From Crocinitomicaceae bacterium (GTDB lineage Bacteria > Bacteroidota > Bacteroidia > Flavobacteriales_D > Crocinitomicaceae), in contig JAQWHI010000018.1 in NCBI GenBank assembly GCA_029249445.1, forward strand, positions 372,001 through 436,000: a stretch of 64,000 bases of DNA. Direction: 5' to 3'. This document shows, one piece after another, positions 1,508-10,817 of the stretch. The position numbers were made by a program, and so were the translations under genes. Positions within the stretch are counted from its first letter, which is position 1. The number at the start of each line of letters is the position of its first letter. The notes beneath the pieces are model-generated. The model was given only the letters and a program-made list of their open reading frames with translations. It ran no database searches and was not told the origin of the DNA.

Positions 1508-2083
1508 CTATTTTTGAATTTGAATAAACAACTCTGATCCTCTCCTCGAGGCTACAGAATTGTAACACTCTTCGAAACTGACCTTGGAAAAGAGACGAAA
1601 ATAATTTTGATATTCCTCTGCATTTCCACCATATGGTGGACCTCCATCAAATTCAACACCAAACATGAGTCCAATCAACTTTCCACCGTCGACAAGTAAT
1701 TCATGACACTTATCCGCATACAATTGTCGCAGCAACGGGTCTATCGCACAAAACATTGTTTGCTCAACGATTATATCATAAACACCATCATGATTGAAAA
1801 AATCGCCCAAATGTATATGACTGATAGGAAAACTTGGTATTCTCGATCTTAAATTGGCCAAAGCAGTTTCAGCGAAATCAACAACATGAACATTTGTAAA
1901 CCCAAGACGCGACAAATATTCTGCCTCATGCCCATTGCCACAACCTGGAATTAAAATCCGTAGATTTTTTTCTTGAACTTGATCAAAATATACTTTAATT
2001 GGTTTTGAAACTTCTCCCAAGTCCCAGCCAATCGTTTCTTTTTCGTATCTATTTTGCCAAAAACGTTTTGATAAATGTTCCAT
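1508..2083 (-). CDS. SAM-dependent methyltransferase, thiopurine methyltransferase (TPMT)-like
   Basis: 191 aa, cytoplasmic, single class I methyltransferase domain. FWQNRYEKETIGWDLGEVSKP at the N-terminus is the typical opening of the TPMT family (W---Y-----GWDlG--S-P). The SAM-binding glycine motif is ILIPGCGNGHEAEYL (motif I), followed by VHVVDFAETA (acidic end of strand 2) and YDIIVEQTMFCAI (motif IV region). The substrate is unknown; TPMT-like bacterial enzymes methylate sulfur, selenium or small toxic thiols. It is the last gene of the riboswitch-led operon, and its ATG overlaps the preceding stop (TAATG). Whether it has a cobalamin-related job or is simply carried along cannot be told from sequence. 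Confidence 0.8.
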   Translation of the reverse strand: MEHLSKRFWQNRYEKETIGWDLGEVSKPIKVYFDQVQEKNLRILIPGCGNGHEAEYLSRLGFTNVHVVDFAETALANLRSRIPSFPISHIHLGDFFNHDGVYDIIVEQTMFCAIDPLLRQLYADKCHELLVDGGKLIGLMFGVEFDGGPPYGGNAEEYQNYFRLFSKVSFEECYNSVASRRGSELFIQIQK

Positions 2084-3030
2084 TAGTATTTCATCACTTT
2101 TTGCACGAAGTTCATTTTTTCACAAATCAAATGAACAAAAAAACAACCCGAATCAAAAGCACTCAAATCAATACTATCAGGACGATTATCCTCTAGTATC
2201 AATCGACCACTCGAGCTGTATACCTTTACTTTATAATCCTCATTAGAGCAAATTCGAAAGATTCCATTTGTAGGATTGGGATATATCACAATTGAAGAAG
2301 TCGGTGCGGTCAAATCTAATAAATCAGAATGTATCACTCCTACAGCATCGAGATCAAAACCACCTGATTCGAACATCGTTGGGTATGGATCATTTATGAT
2401 TGTACCCTGACTGTCGAATGTTCCAAACTGCGGATCGAGATTACCCACAACGTCGATAATCTTTACATGGGTAATTGCTGATATATCCAAACCCGTTGTG
2501 CCCGACAGCTCTTCAAGGTCAAAGGGGGTTCCAAAGTTTGCTCTGTACTTCCCTGCAAAATTAGTCACGTAGGCACAGTTGACCGTATCAAAATTCGTTA
2601 ATTGTAATGATGTTTGTATTTCACTTATTGCATCAAATCGCGTATAATTGATACCATCAGAGCTCACTTCTACAAAAGCCAGTTCAAGATAGTGGTCCAA
2701 AAAACCATTTTCGAATACGGCAAAGTCAGCGCCTACACCATTGCTTATTGGTGCACTAAAAGTAAGTATCGCCTCTCCTCCATCCCCGAGAGATAAAACC
2801 GATGTCCCTGTTGCTTGACCAGTTGCGTCGGACTCTGAGCCATAGGACGCATATCCAAATGAAGAATTCACAATTAACTGTGGTCCGCGGTCAACGGTGA
2901 CACCTGTAGCCCATCCGATGAAGACAGATGAATCTTTATGAATTGCCGTTGATCCAGCTATACCCGGCTCTGGAGCATAGGATTGTCCAAAACACAGAAG
3001 CGGAGACAAAAAGAATAGGTACTTAATCAT
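2083..3030 (-). CDS. T9SS-sorted cell-surface protein in B12-riboswitch operon
   Basis: 315 aa from the ATG at 3030; nine bases upstream an in-frame TTG exists, but the ATG gives a clean signal peptide (MIKYLFFLSPLLCFGQ) and is preferred. The mature part begins PEPGIAGSTAIHKDSS and contains a beta-rich domain with FGYASYGSESDATG, VLSLGDGGEAILTF and GADFAVFENGF, a pattern I associate with surface proteins in Bacteroidota cobalamin loci. The last 75 residues are a type A T9SS sorting domain (YPNPTNGIF ... SSSGRLI ... FVHLICEKMNFVQKVMKY). It overlaps the BtuG-like gene by 8 nt and the methyltransferase by 1 nt. A cobalamin or cobinamide capture role is inferred from context only. Confidence 0.75.
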   Translation of the reverse strand: MIKYLFFLSPLLCFGQSYAPEPGIAGSTAIHKDSSVFIGWATGVTVDRGPQLIVNSSFGYASYGSESDATGQATGTSVLSLGDGGEAILTFSAPISNGVGADFAVFENGFLDHYLELAFVEVSSDGINYTRFDAISEIQTSLQLTNFDTVNCAYVTNFAGKYRANFGTPFDLEELSGTTGLDISAITHVKIIDVVGNLDPQFGTFDSQGTIINDPYPTMFESGGFDLDAVGVIHSDLLDLTAPTSSIVIYPNPTNGIFRICSNEDYKVKVYSSSGRLILEDNRPDSIDLSAFDSGCFFVHLICEKMNFVQKVMKY

Positions 3031-4060
3031 AAAAAACAACTTTTGAAGGATTCAATCCTACTGAAAAACTCCCCAGATACATACCAGAAGCTGTAAACGA
3101 ACGGAGATAACCTGAATTCGTGTAATTCATTGCGTCAGAAACATAAACCAATCCATCAAAAGGATTGTAGGTCACTCCATACAACGTTGTTACCTCAGAC
3201 AAGTCGAAAATATTTGCTTGCGTCATTTGCTCTGAAACAGGATCAAAGATTCCGATCGAAGAATTATTGTATACCAGAAATGAAGCATTCATTTCAGCGA
3301 TTCCAACGGCATCAAAAGTAAAAGTTTCTGCTACTTGATTGGACGATGTATTGATTCGAACTAACCTGGAAGGTATCTGTCCATAGTCACCTCTGCGCAC
3401 AACATAAATATCTCCCTGGGCATCAGATATGACAGCACCGGGATTAATGCCAACCGTCAACTTAGTCACTTCAGACTCCGACAGAAGATTTACTATTGAT
3501 ACAGTAGAATCTACATTGGGAAAATTGAGCCCACCTGAATTTGCAACATAGAGGTAATTATCTACAACAGCCAGTCCTTCTGGATTACTTCCCACTTGAA
3601 TTCGATTGGTAACTTGTAATGTAACGGTATCGATAACATCAACAAAACCATCATAGCATGAAACATATGCTTTACTTCCTGAAAACGCAATTGCTCTTGG
3701 TTGTTTTGCAATCCCATTTTCAATCATTTCAATCTGAGCAAGAGGCGTAAAGTTAATAGCAGAGAGTACTTCAACTCTACTCGAAGCATTTACAACAACA
3801 TAAATTTTATCTCCATAGCGCTGAATATCGTTCCCAGTGTCACCCAACTGACGATTCGTTGAGGTAACAAAAAATGAATTTTCGATCTCATTTTTAGAAA
3901 AATCAATCCATGAGATGGATGAATTGTTTTGTTGAAAGAGTCCCTCACATAGAACCAACGCACCATTCGACAAATTTTCGTTGACAGATGGACATGGTAT
4001 CGGTTCAGGTTTGCAGCTTGCAAATACTCCAAAAAGCCAAAGAAAACTAATGTAACGCAT
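3023..4060 (-). CDS. BtuG-like surface beta-propeller lipoprotein (YncE/DUF5074 family)
   Basis: 345 aa. Lipoprotein signal MRYISFLWLFGVFASC with Cys16 as the lipidated residue. The rest is a chain of about 40-residue beta-propeller blades, e.g. GDTGNDIQRYGDKIYVVVNASS, QPRAIAFSGSKAYVSCYDG, NPEGLAVVDNYLYVANSG and YGVTYNPFDGLVYVSDA. The NTGNDI----DK-YVV-N block is typical of the YncE-like proteins found with BtuB in Bacteroidota, including BtuG, the surface lipoprotein that captures cobalamin and caps BtuB. Here it directly follows the BtuB-like receptor with a 14-nt overlap and is under a cobalamin riboswitch, which supports the same role. The symbol btuG is plausible but not assigned because ligand residues cannot be checked. 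Confidence 0.82.
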   Translation of the reverse strand: MRYISFLWLFGVFASCKPEPIPCPSVNENLSNGALVLCEGLFQQNNSSISWIDFSKNEIENSFFVTSTNRQLGDTGNDIQRYGDKIYVVVNASSRVEVLSAINFTPLAQIEMIENGIAKQPRAIAFSGSKAYVSCYDGFVDVIDTVTLQVTNRIQVGSNPEGLAVVDNYLYVANSGGLNFPNVDSTVSIVNLLSESEVTKLTVGINPGAVISDAQGDIYVVRRGDYGQIPSRLVRINTSSNQVAETFTFDAVGIAEMNASFLVYNNSSIGIFDPVSEQMTQANIFDLSEVTTLYGVTYNPFDGLVYVSDAMNYTNSGYLRSFTASGMYLGSFSVGLNPSKVVFYD

Positions 4061-6068
4061 AACTCATTGATATTAAGAAGTTTCTACCCGGCATTACAAA
4101 TGAACGCACATACACGTAAGATGAGTCAAAAATGTTTTTTACGTTAGCTTGAAGTTTGATTTTTTGTCCCTTTTTGAGGACAAAAGAATAGGTTATAAAT
4201 AAATCAGAAAGAAGGTAGTCTTGAACTCGATTCTGATCAATGTTTTCATTCAGAGCGAAGCGCATTGAAACATAATTATTCGCAATACCAAACCCCAATT
4301 CACCTCTACTAAATAGAAGATCAAAATTTGCAAGATGCTCAGGTGTATAAGCTATTTGATGCCCATAGTTCAGTGATTCTTTTGTGACGTCTATTGCCTT
4401 TTGGTAGGAATAGTTCACATTCAAATCTACATCTATCTTTCCAACACCCCAACAGAAATCAATTGCGCCTTCCATTCCAAAAATATTAACATTTGTGACG
4501 TTTTGCATCGACCAGATGAACAAATTCTTTGTTGGGATAGCAACAATCTTATTTTGGACTCGATTGAAATAAACAGTAGTACGCAAATCTAGGTTCGCCC
4601 TTTTGTCGTTCTTGGGCGAAGAACTTACCCCATAGTTTATCTGGTGTGCTGACTCTGGTAGCAATTCTGAATTTCCAACAGTAGCGTAATACAATTCATT
4701 AAATGAAGGTATTCTAAATGTATTTTTGTACCAAACCAAATGTTTAAAATGCCAACTCCCTTCCTTAAAAAAGGTCAGATCAACTGATGGATTCACTTTT
4801 ATCGACTCACGGGGGCTATTATTTAGACTCGCCAATTCATAAATGTATTGACTCGATAATTGTACTTTAATTGTGGCCGACTTAAAAGGTTTGTAAACCG
4901 ATACAAATCCACTTGAATGCGACCTAAACGGATTTGATAAGGAAGAATCCGAGGAAACCAATGTACTTAACGTTTCTTCCAACCCTCCAATAACATTAAT
5001 ACCCTTAGCACTTCTTCGACGAAAAACAGTGCCGAGGTTTGTACTTTGGTTGATGTATTCATTGTCCAAAAAACCAATCTCATTCAAATAGGTCGGATCC
5101 AAATACTTCATCGCATTCCAGTTGTAATTGGCATAAGATCGGAATTCCCAGCGTTTGAAATTAAATTTGGCATCCGCATAGAACAAATTATCAAGCGTAT
5201 TCAGACGCTCATCTGCAGTAGAATTATAGAGTATTACTGCTCCTGGAAGCCCTTGATCTATCATTGAACCTCTATAACCAAAACGATAAGAACCATTTTT
5301 CTTTCCAAGAATTTTAACTTGACCACCGAAAAATCCATCTTCATAATCATTGTTATTTCTCACCCCCTCTTCCGTAGCTAAACCATTCAAATATGAATAA
5401 TCATAATCACCACGTGCAGAACGATACTTCGCGTATCCTGAAAAAATTATTCTTTCATCTTTCGAGTAAACGCCTGACAAATAACCTTCATAACGACCAA
5501 ATGAACCCAATTTAAAACTTGAACGGAGTTGATTTCTTGCATCGCCGTATCGACTCTGAAACGTATTCATAACCAATGAATTTCCGGAGAGGTAGGCTGA
5601 TACGGGTAGAAAAATAGATACATTATCATTCGTAGAACTAAGAATAGAAACCATACCATCGGCTTGTATCTGTCCAAGATTTGTCATTCCTGTCTGAGAA
5701 TTAGATACATTAAATCCGTCAACAACTATTGCTGTATGTTGACTTCCAAGGGCTCGTGTACTAATCGATTTTAGTGCTCCCAGTCCACCGTATGACCTTA
5801 CAGTAGATCCGCTGAGTTTGCTGGCCAATTCTCCAATATCATCTGGTGATAGTTTTTGAATTTTATCTTCAAAAATCCACGTACCTACCGGACGTATTGC
5901 TTGACGTTCACCTTTGGTTCGTTTGATACTTATTTCCTCTATATATTGAGTTCGAAGAAGGTCTAATCGCATAGAATCGTTAAAAAAAGCACTAGTGTCC
6001 TGAGCGAATGAAATAACGGGGAGTACAAAAAGTACTCCCACAAAAAATATATTTCTTATGAAGATCAC
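4047..6068 (-). CDS. btuB: TonB-dependent outer-membrane receptor, BtuB-like (cobalamin)
   Basis: 673 aa, close to the BtuB length range. Signal peptide MIFIRNIFFVGVLFVLPVISFAQ, then a plug domain (about residues 50-160: KLSPDDIGELASKLSGSTVRSYGG, STRALGSQHTAIVVDGF) and a 22-strand-type barrel ending in an aromatic-terminated strand (NFLISMSYALH). No N-terminal carboxypeptidase-like domain, as in BtuB-type receptors. The start is GTG at 6068, overlapping the upstream stop as TAGTG; no ATG would retain the signal peptide. The symbol rests on size, the cobalamin riboswitch upstream and the adjacent BtuG-like gene. It would import corrinoid across the outer membrane using TonB energy. Confidence 0.82.
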   Translation of the reverse strand: MIFIRNIFFVGVLFVLPVISFAQDTSAFFNDSMRLDLLRTQYIEEISIKRTKGERQAIRPVGTWIFEDKIQKLSPDDIGELASKLSGSTVRSYGGLGALKSISTRALGSQHTAIVVDGFNVSNSQTGMTNLGQIQADGMVSILSSTNDNVSIFLPVSAYLSGNSLVMNTFQSRYGDARNQLRSSFKLGSFGRYEGYLSGVYSKDERIIFSGYAKYRSARGDYDYSYLNGLATEEGVRNNNDYEDGFFGGQVKILGKKNGSYRFGYRGSMIDQGLPGAVILYNSTADERLNTLDNLFYADAKFNFKRWEFRSYANYNWNAMKYLDPTYLNEIGFLDNEYINQSTNLGTVFRRRSAKGINVIGGLEETLSTLVSSDSSLSNPFRSHSSGFVSVYKPFKSATIKVQLSSQYIYELASLNNSPRESIKVNPSVDLTFFKEGSWHFKHLVWYKNTFRIPSFNELYYATVGNSELLPESAHQINYGVSSSPKNDKRANLDLRTTVYFNRVQNKIVAIPTKNLFIWSMQNVTNVNIFGMEGAIDFCWGVGKIDVDLNVNYSYQKAIDVTKESLNYGHQIAYTPEHLANFDLLFSRGELGFGIANNYVSMRFALNENIDQNRVQDYLLSDLFITYSFVLKKGQKIKLQANVKNIFDSSYVYVRSFVMPGRNFLISMSYALH

Positions 6069-7036
6069 TAGTTTTTAACTACTTTGCTCTTGTAGGATCC
6101 ATTCACATTTTCAAGATGAACAATATAAACGCCAGATGGAAATTCACTTAAATTAACTGATGTAGATTGTTCATGCACAGCCTCTAACAGTATCTCACCA
6201 CTTAATGATGTAATCATCAAATGACCGGATTCTCCATTGATATTTACAATGTCTTTTACAGGATTCGGAAATATCGAAATATTGGACAGTTGCTGCTCAT
6301 TTATTCCGCCGTAAGTTGTACGATTCAAACCGTCAATGGCAAAGTAAGTTGGCGTGTTAATCCAGCCGCCGGTTGTATCTGACGACTCTATTTTAAACGA
6401 TAACTCTCCAATGTGAAATAGAAAACCTGTCAAATCTACATCGATCCATGAATCTACGATATAATCCTGGCTGTTATCAGCGAATCGGTAATCTGCGAGG
6501 TATATTTCAACAGAATCAACCATGGATCCATCGTGGGATTTTCCGTACACCCAAACACGGTAAAAATCCTCCCCATTTGTTCCATCAACAACCGTGCTGT
6601 CTCCATTGTAAATGGACCCAAATTGTTTACCAAATCCGTCACCGTCTCTCATCGACAGAGCAGAATAAGTTGTATTTGTTATTTTAAATTGATCCAAAGA
6701 AATATTTTCTTGATCTACAGAAATACTACCCGAGCTATAGAAAACGGCATATGATTCTGATGCATTGTGGCCAGAACCAGTCCATGCACTAAATTGGTTT
6801 CCCCAACCTGGCGTTACAACATCTGTTTTATTCGAAATTGAAAAGCCTGTCCACGAACCCCATGTGGCGTCATAATTGTTGTAAAAACGAACATCGTCCA
6901 AAATAAAATCACCATTGCCTGCCCAACCATTGTCGAAGGTATCAGCTGTAGGTAAGAAATTTTCAAAATCAATAATTTGTGCCTGGGCACTAGCTCCAAT
7001 CATAAATGCTGTTGCTAAAACGTAAAGTTTCTTCAT
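6068..7036 (-). CDS. DUF4465 domain protein with T9SS type A sorting domain
   Basis: 322 aa, first gene behind the cobalamin riboswitch. Signal peptide MKKLYVLATAFMIGASAQA, then a DUF4465 domain (about residues 20-230): IDFENF near the start, GNGDFILDDVRFYN, WGSWTGFSISN and a later YFAIDGL block. The tail (FPNPVKDIVNINGE ... SGEILLEA ... GVYIVHLENVNGSYKSKVVKN) is a type A T9SS sorting domain, so the protein should be secreted and anchored on the cell surface. DUF4465 proteins recur in B12-riboswitch loci of Bacteroidota, and a role in surface capture of corrinoids is inferred. The stop shares one base with the receptor GTG start, pointing to translational coupling. Confidence 0.85.
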   Translation of the reverse strand: MKKLYVLATAFMIGASAQAQIIDFENFLPTADTFDNGWAGNGDFILDDVRFYNNYDATWGSWTGFSISNKTDVVTPGWGNQFSAWTGSGHNASESYAVFYSSGSISVDQENISLDQFKITNTTYSALSMRDGDGFGKQFGSIYNGDSTVVDGTNGEDFYRVWVYGKSHDGSMVDSVEIYLADYRFADNSQDYIVDSWIDVDLTGFLFHIGELSFKIESSDTTGGWINTPTYFAIDGLNRTTYGGINEQQLSNISIFPNPVKDIVNINGESGHLMITSLSGEILLEAVHEQSTSVNLSEFPSGVYIVHLENVNGSYKSKVVKN

Positions 7037-7149
7037 CGTATAAAAAATAAAAATTATTAAAACGCGAAGAAATCAGGTAAATGAATGTAGGGCGAACTCT
7101 AGGAGACGCAACCAAATCCGACTTTAATCTGAAGTCCTCATTATCTATT

Positions 7150-7309
7150 GACTTGACAAGTATTCTGACTCATACCATATCAGACTCGTCTTCCCGCTCT
7201 ATAGTTGAACAGTGACATAATGAGGCTGACTTCGAGTATTTACAGCTGCAGATACAGTTCCGGGTTTACACCGGATTCCTTTTTTCACTCCATCTTGGAA
7301 ACCAAAGTC
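7150..7309 (-). promoter_or_regulatory. Cobalamin riboswitch (AdoCbl-type core)
   Basis: Read on the minus strand, the leader of the 7036-1508 operon holds the expected conserved parts in order: a P1 strand GACTT (7309-7305), the core AGGAATCCGGTG followed by CCGG, then CTGCAGCTGTAAA, and the B12 box GAGTCAGAATACTTGTCA (7172-7155), closed by AAGTC (7154-7150) pairing with the first GACTT. A weak -7-like box (TACCTTCG, 7321-7314) lies just upstream, placing the 5' end near the P1 strand. About 115 nt separate it from the ATG at 7036, with a GACTT/AAGTC hairpin at 7136-7120 that could exchange with P1. Cobalamin binding is expected to switch the operon off. Confidence 0.9.
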
Positions 7310-7398
7310 AGTGCGAAGGTACAACATTTATTTCGATCGAAAAAAAATGATTGAATTTACCGTACCTCCTATTGTCTTAACTGACCTTTTACCAAATT

Positions 7399-9861
7399 CT
7401 AATTGTTATCCAGTTCGAATGTGTATTGTAACATTATCGATCTTGGCGGTTCAATTTTCAATGGGCGAAGTGAAAAAATACGGTTGAAAATATTTGAACC
7501 AATAAGCGCGATCTTATGGTGATGATTGATCTTGAATGAGAATCGAGCATCGAAAACCCAATTTCCAAATCTATGGGCGTTGAAATAATCCATGTAACGA
7601 ATTTCTTGAACTGTTCCTCCAGTATTCACTGTTGTTTCCTCAAAATCTCTGATGATTCCATCCATGTTAATAATTTTACTGAAATATTTAACGCTAAATC
7701 CAAGTGCTATTTTTTTCTTGTAGTTAAACTCAAAGTCCGCCTTGATGTTGTGCAAAAAACGGTATTTCAATATCTTATGGGTCGTATCTAAAGATGTCGT
7801 ATTGTAGCTAAATTCACGATTAATTGAATCGACAGCATAAATATAATTTGGATTTAAGGTTTTGGGCACGATATAATTGTATCCAGAAATGAAATTGAGA
7901 TCGAGATTGTTGTTGATTTTAGCCTTCCCTGCGAAGGAAATGTCGATTCCAAGGACTCTCGACTTACCAGTATTTAAAAATTTAAATCCAGCAAAAGAAC
8001 TTGGACTATTTGCATCCCAAATACCAAACATATACTCTATAGTATTCTCATATTCCTGCCAAAAACCGGCCATGTCCAAATATCCGAACAGCTTTCCGAA
8101 CTTCAAGCCTTGCTTGATACCAACTTCAGTATTCCAACTACTTTCAGCTTTTAAATTTTCATTTGGAAAAACACCAAAATTACCTACACCCGTTTTTATA
8201 AAACGTTCTGTAATTGTTGGGAATCTATATCCTTGTCCATAAGACCCTCTAATGTAGGTCTCTTGATATACCTTTAAACTGGCACCAGCCCGAAAGATAG
8301 GTTTCAAGTTTTGAATTGAATCATTGAGTTGAAAATATTCCAATCTTCCACCAATGGATAGGTTTAAAGTATTTTTTATTTTTCGTTCTATTTCTGAATA
8401 TGCCGATACATTCAGGAGACGATTAAAAGATGAACCACTTGAGCCACCGTAAATATTTGAGTACGAATCAACAAATTGACTAGAAACACCCCCAACAAAA
8501 TCCATCCCACCGAGGTTCTGATACTTATTCTTGAATCTATAATCACCGTAATAAGTTGTTGTTCTGTTATTTTGATTTGGTGTCATTTTATTGTCAGAGT
8601 GTAAAACTCTAGTTCGCAGACTGTGCTTACCATTAGCCTTAGTGTAGAAATTAACAAAAGGATCAATATTAAAGATCAATTGATCCTGTAAAAAAATTGC
8701 CCCTGGATACGCCCGAAACAATCCCGATGTATCATTAAGCCAAGCAAATGTCATATTGGTGCTTGTAAGCATGGCATTTCCATTAATACCATAATTGAGT
8801 CCCTTAATTTTTTTTGACCGGTACCGCAAATTAAAATTGAATCGAGCACGTTTCGAAGACATATCATTTTCTTGATAGTCAACAGTATCTGGAAATGTAA
8901 CATCCTCACCATTGATTGGAGGGCCTATATAGCCATGATCATAATTTAAATTTCCACCGACAACCAAGTCGAAATTCCCAAAGCGTCTCGAATGTAAAAA
9001 ATTGGCACCTGCTATTAATGGTGCTTGTTCCCACCATACGGCACCCTCTAATGCCGGTTCAGAATAAGCTCCAGAGTACACATTAATTTTTGTTTTCGGC
9101 TTCAACTTCGGAAATGCGGTACGAATATGAATAGATCCTGACAATGCAGCGCTTCCAGAGAGCACAGATGCAGCTCCCTTAATAACTTCAATCTGGTGTA
9201 TGTTCTCAACAGGTATAAACCCCCATTCTGGACGACCAGCATCTCCCGAAAGCATCGGCATTTCATCTACAATTACCGCAACCTTAGAACCTACTCCAAA
9301 TGTAAAACCACTCCCTCCTCTGATTTGGGGTTCACCATCGAGTATGTTCAAACCTGGTGTTTGGTCTAACGCAGTTTCAATACTCCTCGTATTTTTATTC
9401 TCGATAATTTCAGGCTTCAACAATTCGATAGAGACTGTTTGGTCCTCAATACGCTTATCAAACTTACCTACTTTGACCGTTATATCATTAAAGTCTTGAA
9501 CATTCGGATCAATATAAGACTTCAAAACAATATCCATCGAAATCGTCTTATTCGGAAGAATGGTAACATAAAAGGTATCGCTAATCATACTCGTATATCG
9601 ACAGATGATACGAGATTCTCCTGGCGGAAGGCTCAATAAATACGCCCCAAACTCATCGGTTATACATCCAACAGTAATGTCTTTTTTCGTTAAAACAGAT
9701 GCTCCTATTAAAATTTCTCCATCTTGATCAAAAACCCGACCTACGAGCTCACCATTTTGACCAAAAGAGAAGAATGAAATACATACGGAAAATACAATGA
9801 GTCTCATAAATCCAGGTAAAAAAAGAGCCGCACTAGAATCTAATGCAGCCCAAAAGTTCAT
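7399..9861 (-). CDS. TonB-dependent receptor with N-terminal carboxypeptidase-like regulatory domain
   Basis: 820 aa. Signal sequence, then a CarboxypepD_reg-like domain (GELVGRVFDQDGEILIGASV to about residue 115), a plug domain (IETALDQTPGLNI, PQIRGGSGFTFGVG, VAVIVDEMP, IHQIEVIKGAASVLSGSAALSG) and a long beta-barrel ending SIMLQYTFELDN. This is the general Bacteroidota receptor layout for vitamins, siderophores, haem or peptides; the substrate cannot be read. ATG at 9861 has an A-rich Bacteroidota-like upstream context; an in-frame ATG 18 codons later gives a tidier signal peptide (MRLIVFSVCISFFSFGQ) and is the alternative start. It follows a T9SS protein gene by 8 nt, likely as one operon, and ends before the riboswitch of the next operon. 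Confidence 0.87.
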   Translation of the reverse strand: MNFWAALDSSAALFLPGFMRLIVFSVCISFFSFGQNGELVGRVFDQDGEILIGASVLTKKDITVGCITDEFGAYLLSLPPGESRIICRYTSMISDTFYVTILPNKTISMDIVLKSYIDPNVQDFNDITVKVGKFDKRIEDQTVSIELLKPEIIENKNTRSIETALDQTPGLNILDGEPQIRGGSGFTFGVGSKVAVIVDEMPMLSGDAGRPEWGFIPVENIHQIEVIKGAASVLSGSAALSGSIHIRTAFPKLKPKTKINVYSGAYSEPALEGAVWWEQAPLIAGANFLHSRRFGNFDLVVGGNLNYDHGYIGPPINGEDVTFPDTVDYQENDMSSKRARFNFNLRYRSKKIKGLNYGINGNAMLTSTNMTFAWLNDTSGLFRAYPGAIFLQDQLIFNIDPFVNFYTKANGKHSLRTRVLHSDNKMTPNQNNRTTTYYGDYRFKNKYQNLGGMDFVGGVSSQFVDSYSNIYGGSSGSSFNRLLNVSAYSEIERKIKNTLNLSIGGRLEYFQLNDSIQNLKPIFRAGASLKVYQETYIRGSYGQGYRFPTITERFIKTGVGNFGVFPNENLKAESSWNTEVGIKQGLKFGKLFGYLDMAGFWQEYENTIEYMFGIWDANSPSSFAGFKFLNTGKSRVLGIDISFAGKAKINNNLDLNFISGYNYIVPKTLNPNYIYAVDSINREFSYNTTSLDTTHKILKYRFLHNIKADFEFNYKKKIALGFSVKYFSKIINMDGIIRDFEETTVNTGGTVQEIRYMDYFNAHRFGNWVFDARFSFKINHHHKIALIGSNIFNRIFSLRPLKIEPPRSIMLQYTFELDNN

Positions 9862-9869
9862 CGTATATT

Positions 9870-10817
9870 TTAATTTTTAAAGACTTTGAATTGCTTCATA
9901 GCATGTTCCGTATTCACATGAATGATGTAAGCCCCAGCTGGTGCATAAAAAGGCACTTTTTGAGCAACAATACCAGACGCTATTTTCTGTCCTGACATAT
10001 CATAAATTTCATACCTCTCGTCAAGTAGCACCTCAGAACTAAAATTCAATTCGTTGGTGAGATTGTCCATGTATACTTCTGTGGTAGACACAGTCACTTC
10101 TTTAATTTCAGAAGAATTATATATCAATGTAACATCGTCGATAAATACTTGATCGCCAATCGTTCCAACACCGGGAATTTCATTGGTTGTAAAAGTTACC
10201 AAAATATGGGTATTATTTGACGCTGGACCGCTGTAATCAAATGGTACAGACTTTCTTTCCCAGCCATTTGTTGAGGGATAATTTAATACAGCCGTGGCAA
10301 CTACATGCTGAGAAGATGCGGCATCTTCAGGGTCTTGATAGTTAAAATCATCGTGCAAAGTTGCTTTCATTCTTGCATTGTGTGAAGGATCTTGACCTAT
10401 AAATTTTGCCCAGAAAACAATGGAATCTGGAGTGTCAGTGCACGCTTCGGAGAACTCTTCCGAGCCCATATTGGTCCAAGAATAGTTTGAGACATCAGCT
10501 GCCGTAGCGCTTCCTACGTTTAGCTGTCCACACGTCATCGTTCCATTTGCAGGAATGGACAACGCACCTTGTGTTTGAATAAGTGCACTAAACCCAGTAC
10601 CTGTGGGTGTATCCGTAGACTGAAATATACCCTGAGGAGCGAATGAAATAAACAATTGACTGCCTGAAGCTTCTTTAATTCCACTCCAATTTTGAGGGCT
10701 TTCCGTTGCAGCACCTAAATCTTCCCAGATTTCCATATCAGAATTCCCAATTTGAGTCTGTGCAACTAATGCTTTTGACACCAACAAAACAGAGACCAAC
10801 ACAATTCGTTTATACAT
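9870..10817 (-). CDS. Secreted PCMD-like protein with T9SS sorting domain
   Basis: 315 aa. Signal peptide MYKRIVLVSVLLVSKALVAQ. The body opens IGNSDMEIWEDLG...PQNWSG and contains DSIVFWAKFIGQDPSHNARMKATLHDD, GWERKSVPFDYSG and a closing GDQVFIDDVTLIYN strand, matching the jelly-roll type PCMD (putative carbohydrate metabolism domain, PF13201) pattern. The C-terminus (LDERYEIYDMSGQKIASG ... GAYIIHVNTEHAMKQFKVFKN) is a T9SS type A sorting domain. It sits 8 nt before the TonB-dependent receptor, so it probably supplies a surface-exposed ligand-binding or substrate-processing partner. The ligand is unknown. Domain assignment is moderate; the sorting tail is clear. Confidence 0.75.
   Translation of the reverse strand: MYKRIVLVSVLLVSKALVAQTQIGNSDMEIWEDLGAATESPQNWSGIKEASGSQLFISFAPQGIFQSTDTPTGTGFSALIQTQGALSIPANGTMTCGQLNVGSATAADVSNYSWTNMGSEEFSEACTDTPDSIVFWAKFIGQDPSHNARMKATLHDDFNYQDPEDAASSQHVVATAVLNYPSTNGWERKSVPFDYSGPASNNTHILVTFTTNEIPGVGTIGDQVFIDDVTLIYNSSEIKEVTVSTTEVYMDNLTNELNFSSEVLLDERYEIYDMSGQKIASGIVAQKVPFYAPAGAYIIHVNTEHAMKQFKVFKN

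Follow-up and report, generated by a model that had tools for sequence, protein, structure and literature searches.

By what proteins, and by which route to the cell surface, does a member of the Crocinitomicaceae capture vitamin B12 (cobalamin)? For gut Bacteroides the process has been elucidated, and almost every accessory protein there is a lipoprotein. Here, we analysed a stretch of 64,000 nucleotides (nt) from a Crocinitomicaceae bacterium (contig JAQWHI010000018.1, positions 372,001 to 436,000; hereafter the window), in which a minus-strand operon stands behind a cobalamin riboswitch. We propose, at a probability of roughly 0.8, that this is a cobamide-starvation operon that combines BtuB-BtuG import with BtuJ and BtuH-superfamily capture proteins, which would be exported by the type IX secretion system (T9SS) and pass B12 on. 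The central element of this proposal is the fourth gene product, termed P2 in the following. The operon consists of these features:

7138-7321 (-), cobalamin riboswitch RF00174 (cmscan 91.5 bits, E 2.2e-21, model 1-189 complete)
6068-7036 (-), DUF4465 (BtuJ-type) protein with T9SS tail (PF14717 and Por_Secre_tail)
4047-6068 (-), BtuB-type TonB-dependent receptor (8blw_A match, plug domain PF07715)
3023-4060 (-), BtuG-type propeller lipoprotein (8blw_B match, DUF5074, lipobox)
2083-3030 (-), P2, BtuH-superfamily domain and T9SS type A tail (fold, hhalign, Por_Secre_tail)
1508-2083 (-), TPMT-type S-adenosylmethionine-dependent methyltransferase (PF05724, 87.5 bits)

P2 and the BtuH superfamily

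P2 consists of a domain spanning approximately residues 17-234, followed by a T9SS type A sorting tail at residues 249-315. The tail scores 40 bits for Por_Secre_tail, over the curated cut-off, and both P2 and the DUF4465 protein exceed the cut-offs of TIGR04183 and PF18962, which bears out a preliminary description of this DNA that had listed a second T9SS-tailed protein at 2083-3030. Besides the sorting tail, a Pfam scan of P2 returned no domain, and neither phmmer nor a profile search matched it to a PDB sequence. The P2 core was modelled with AlphaFold2 from a 41-sequence alignment (predicted local distance difference test score 93), and the model was searched against 350,542 PDB chains using Foldseek. 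Its two best entries were 8blw_B (BtuG1) and 7biz (BtuH2), both through their BtuH domains. Alignment with VIA-align gave a Z of 12.4 for residues 318-592 of BtuH2 (7biz), which is the B12-binding region of that protein, and of 11.2 for the C-terminal residues 392-660 of BtuG1 (8blw_B), while CBM32 domains scored 10.2 or less. Sequence identity in the structural alignments with BtuH is only 12-19%.

Sequence profiles point in the same direction. The BtuH domains for this comparison came from a Bacteroides-type genome (L221), where a BtuG-BtuH fusion adjoins BtuJ, and from its family. In hhalign, P2 matched 30 Bacteroides BtuH domains with a probability of 87.8 (E 3.3e-6). The aligned stretch around VSLGD-GG...I.N..G.DF.VFENGF spans 49 columns at 45% identity, and the score of 46.7 compares with a maximum of 27.6 among 100 column shuffles. 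The clearest result came from a bridging family of distant P2-like proteins (L079-L100), which aligned with P2 at a probability of 99.6 and, over 159 columns, with BtuH at 97.5 (E 7e-12, no shuffle scoring above 19.5). A wide alignment of 120 P2 sequences gave a lower probability than the 41-sequence alignment (17.5, E 3e-4), perhaps due to gappy columns that enlarge the model. Across all loci fetched, the BtuH hidden Markov model matched, beyond Bacteroides-type BtuH, P2 relatives only. We also considered P2 as a relative of DUF4465 and rejected this assignment, as the hhalign negative controls gave probabilities of 0.9 and 0.1; no DUF4465 structure ranked among the top 50 fold matches of P2.

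Does the similarity extend to the ligand contacts? B12 is contacted in BtuH2 by Gln333, Asn399, Phe401, His476, Tyr510, Trp511, Trp577 and Leu578 (PMC8941943). Asn399 and Phe401 align with N92 of P2, invariant in the 41 sequences, and with F94, conserved in at least 90% of them. From profiles and model together, we conclude that P2 is a distant, T9SS-sorted member of the BtuH superfamily. We file it under the superfamily and not under BtuH itself, because the window protein has no lipobox, the lipoprotein trait of BtuH proper, and carries a T9SS tail instead.

Linkage of P2 to B12 loci

Is the position of P2 in a B12 operon a common arrangement? Among the 80 best-scoring P2 relatives, 57 are preceded at no more than 6.5 kb by a cobalamin riboswitch of the same strand, and the number rises to 69 when co-directional BtuB, BtuG or DUF4465 genes are counted as well; some of these relatives come from the same genomes as other loci, so these counts are not independent. 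A fairer test is a phylum-wide sample of 296 genomes that were not chosen by B12, in which the placement of hits was read by hand from coordinate tables. Besides the window's own genome, 33 of them hold a P2-type gene, which in 30 cases shares a contig with a cobalamin riboswitch or a BtuG-like gene and is no more than approximately 7 kb away from it (exceptions: G076, G082 and G345). A 3 Mb genome holds about one riboswitch, and we estimate the linkage expected by chance at well under 1%. Co-occurrence of the two T9SS-tailed proteins with B12 loci had been proposed earlier as a check of the B12 hypothesis, and neither is found mostly away from such loci: for P2 this follows from the counts above, and the linkage of DUF4465 to BtuB and propeller genes has already been published.

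The gene order around P2 varies. Within the genus, around 20 loci have P2 adjoining BtuG in the order seen in the window. Among the P2 relatives at large, the orders riboswitch-DUF4465-BtuB-BtuG-P2, riboswitch-P2-BtuB-BtuG and riboswitch-DUF4465-P2-BtuB-BtuG occur. Such variation speaks for a functional link and against neighbours that are merely frozen in place.

Riboswitch and operon layout

The riboswitch match exceeds the RF00174 gathering score of 31.5 bits and lies on the strand of the operon, approximately 100 nt 5' of the first start codon, with the B12 box GTCACTG at 7210-7216(-). Since it is the sole RF00174 match found in the 2.33 Mb Flavobacteriales-type genome, its association with the operon is far beyond chance. 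The five genes behind it (DUF4465, BtuB, BtuG, P2, methyltransferase) overlap successively by 1, 14, 8 and 1 nt. The preliminary description had thus recognised the riboswitch, its B12 box and overlaps of 1-14 nt correctly; its four genes stand as well, but it had passed over a fifth within the same interval, the methyltransferase at 1508-2083. The opening bases of the riboswitch, TACCTTCG, look like a Bacteroidota -7 promoter element and may act as such. The genome also encodes users of B12, namely MetH, methylmalonyl-CoA mutase and IcmF.

The import unit and the BtuJ-type protein

BtuB and BtuG are, by sequence, clearly related to the BtuB1-BtuG1 complex of Bacteroides thetaiotaomicron. The receptor at 4047-6068 matches BtuB1 (8blw_A) over residues 24-665 with an E of 8e-69, and the propeller at 3023-4060 matches BtuG1 (8blw_B) with an E of 5e-59, in agreement with the BtuB-size receptor and the BtuG-type lipoprotein propeller reported earlier. 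The BtuB gene uses a GTG start, which overlaps the stop codon of the preceding gene by 1 nt, and its product scores 75 bits for TIGR01779 (TonB-B12), under the equivalog cut-off. BtuG has a signal with the lipobox VFASC (...FASC-KPE), frequently C-K-K-D/E among its relatives, and a seven-bladed DUF5074 propeller. In another genome of the same class (G076), a 589-residue protein with a DUF5074 match, a T9SS-like C-terminus and no obvious lipobox is encoded directly behind a cobalamin riboswitch (L181:3528-5294(-)), possibly a T9SS version of BtuG.

The first gene product was correctly described earlier as a DUF4465 protein with a T9SS tail: it scores 144 bits for PF14717 and 45 bits for Por_Secre_tail, both over the curated cut-offs. 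It matches BtuJ1 (9fct) with an E of 1e-19, with WINTPTY opposite QMNTPSY, and retains NTPTY of the B12 loop, i.e. the NTPxY motif described for BtuJ (PMC12751083) including its tyrosine. DUF4465 is the B12-binding BtuJ family; binding has been reported for eight divergent members, among them an in vitro binder from Fluviicola taffensis (PMC13398666), and the window member probably binds B12 as well. The T9SS-tailed F. taffensis protein F2I9N3 belongs to the same Pfam family, with no difference of kind found from the window protein. The named genomes closest to the window are metagenome-assembled ones of Crocinitomicaceae and of Fluviicola, L101 being from the latter.

Sorting signals and the anchor split

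Both capture proteins have a signal peptide, read by eye, and the genome encodes SprA, the outer-membrane channel of the T9SS, with a score of 2360 bits, from which we judged the system to be present. Type A tails allow either release from the cell or anchoring at its surface. Among the loci gathered, the T9SS tail is present in 115 of 117 P2 relatives and in 61 of 68 DUF4465 proteins, and at least 94 of 101 BtuG relatives have the lipobox; the anchor split is therefore systematic. To judge from these signals, T9SS-sorted capture proteins under a lipidated lid are the rule among these bacteria and not peculiar to this organism. A mixed capture layer with one lipid-anchored and two T9SS-delivered partners, as suggested in the preliminary description, is accordingly well supported by sequence.

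Short DUF4465 proteins without a T9SS tail are mostly lipoproteins. One operon of a sister genus encodes such a short, untailed DUF4465 lipoprotein (L053:12420-13151(-), ...LVSCKKDE), while P2 of the same operon retains its tail. The anchor has thus been exchanged inside a single bacterial family, and lipid and T9SS anchors look interchangeable.

Proposed mechanism and alternatives

How would these parts work together? When cobalamin is scarce, the riboswitch should leave the transcript on, as established for this RNA family and expected here. BtuB and its lipoprotein lid BtuG would form the import unit in the outer membrane, and the DUF4465 protein and P2 would cross the inner membrane by their signal peptides (Sec) and the outer membrane by the T9SS, which would remove the C-terminal tails and leave the proteins anchored at the surface or released. 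Outside the cell, BtuJ-type and BtuH-type proteins could then bind cobamides and deliver them to BtuG and from there to BtuB. Sequence, homology, operon linkage, regulation and sorting signals are direct observations here, and from them we infer that P2 binds B12, is located at the surface and hands B12 over to BtuG/BtuB.

Several observations weigh against this reading. The contacts of BtuH2 other than Asn399 and Phe401, among them the corrin contacts His476, Tyr510, Trp511 and Trp577, lie in segments without P2 alignment, and P2 falls short of the BtuH domain by approximately 60 residues. In nine genomes of the genus (L056, L057, L058, L060, L061, L063, L066, L067 and L069), P2 is found elsewhere, off the BtuB/BtuG locus and with no riboswitch detected, in seven cases beside alaS. 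These displaced genes, single-copy in each genome, form one clade, separate from that of the P2 genes that lie in the operon in this genus, and the operon reads DUF4465-BtuB-BtuG-methyltransferase in the eight or so genomes where it is readable. Elsewhere in the order, P2 is missing in about half of the sampled BtuG-bearing genomes, so it is an accessory of the BtuB-BtuG core.

A broader version of the proposal, in which the P2 relatives form a phylum-wide T9SS-exported branch of the BtuH superfamily, Bacteroidota with a T9SS export a two-protein capture layer of BtuJ and BtuH type, and this layer may be shed as a protein 'cobalophore' that works away from the cell and feeds BtuG and BtuB, we regard as tentative and rather improbable as a whole. 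Slightly less favoured still is that the T9SS tails serve to release both proteins as soluble, siderophore-like B12 carriers that work at a distance instead of anchoring them, as has been proposed for BtuJ on vesicles, a sub-case that is compatible with the proposed capture operon; type A tails in general permit release, while the sequence itself favours neither release nor anchoring. BtuJ of B. thetaiotaomicron does act on released vesicles (PMC12751083).

Could P2 instead be an operon member that does not bind B12, with a structural or docking role like BtuL or BtuK2 of B. thetaiotaomicron? Neither of these showed cobalamin binding despite its operon location (PMC12751083), which makes the step from homology to binding the weakest link for P2, and most corrin contacts of BtuH2 are without an alignable counterpart. 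However, the top fold match of P2 is a B12-binding BtuH domain and the Asn/Phe contacts to the nucleotide loop are conserved, and we therefore consider a non-binding P2 unlikely. Finally, P2 might be a carbohydrate-binding beta sandwich of the generic F5/8 type (CBM32-like) that stands in B12 operons by coincidence and serves e.g. to tether the system to polysaccharide, which we consider very improbable: the CBM32 scores are not far under those of BtuH, and BtuH itself is modestly similar to AlyQ (PMC8941943), but sequence profiles tie P2 specifically to BtuH and its relatives stand predominantly in B12 loci, as counted above.

Comparison with known systems

Cobamide locus 1 of B. thetaiotaomicron (BT1486-1491) encodes BtuK1, BtuK2, BtuH1, BtuB1, BtuGH and BtuJ1. 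It shares with the window operon the riboswitch control, a BtuB1-BtuG1-type pair, a BtuJ (DUF4465) protein and a BtuH-type domain by BtuG. In locus 1, however, all accessory proteins are lipoproteins and the BtuH domain is fused to BtuG, whereas in the window the BtuJ and BtuH-like proteins are separate and T9SS-tailed, a methyltransferase is added and no BtuK was recognised. By analogy, the T9SS-sorted BtuJ and BtuH proteins would parallel the lipoprotein BtuJ, BtuH and BtuG-BtuH fusion of gut Bacteroides. With the BtuH family (BtuH1, BtuH2 and the BtuG1 C-terminus; 7biz, 8blw), P2 shares the fold, the profile match, the nucleotide-loop Asn/Phe and the operon partners; it differs by a shorter domain, the lack of Ig-like PKD domains and of a lipobox, and the T9SS tail. 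In a Bacteroides-family genome (G288), BtuB and BtuG are followed by two BtuH-type proteins, one on either side of a DUF4465 protein (L223:3910-7917(-)).

The similarity may reach further. The Leptospira lipoprotein family of LIC_13355 (NF033170) matches 70 of 117 P2 relatives, with E down to 4e-9. The paper on LIC_13355 treats this spirochaete lipoprotein as an adhesin for laminin and plasminogen and does not mention B12 (PMC11891782); on sequence grounds, its family may belong to the BtuH superfamily.

Which part of this is new? BtuB-BtuG, B12 binding by DUF4465 and T9SS tails on DUF4465 are known already, the tail (IPR026444) having been published for 229 of 824 DUF4465 sequences (PMC12751083). 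BtuH, in turn, has been described as lacking known structural homologs (PMC8941943), and in the literature searched, which covered few subscription papers, we found neither a T9SS-sorted BtuH relative nor BtuH relatives from environmental Bacteroidota. The earlier suggestion of a variant B12 machine worth describing thus holds for P2 and falls away for the DUF4465 protein. With P2, a likely function is named for an unannotated family that has no Pfam model and occurs at hundreds of loci in environmental Bacteroidota, and the BtuH superfamily is extended far beyond the gut. This suggests that each lineage uses the surface route available to it to deliver the same kinds of capture protein. It also becomes testable whether the exported B12 binders remain anchored or, in waters poor in B12, serve several cells in common.

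Methyltransferase and upstream genes

In the genus, the TPMT-type methyltransferase gene closes the operon as a conserved member, following P2 or, where P2 is displaced, BtuG. On the other side of the operon, the riboswitch is directly preceded across the genus by two conserved genes, which encode a second TonB-dependent receptor (7399-9861(-)) and a protein of no Pfam family with a weak T9SS tail (9870-10817(-)). This gene pair (7399-10817(-)) lies outside riboswitch control.

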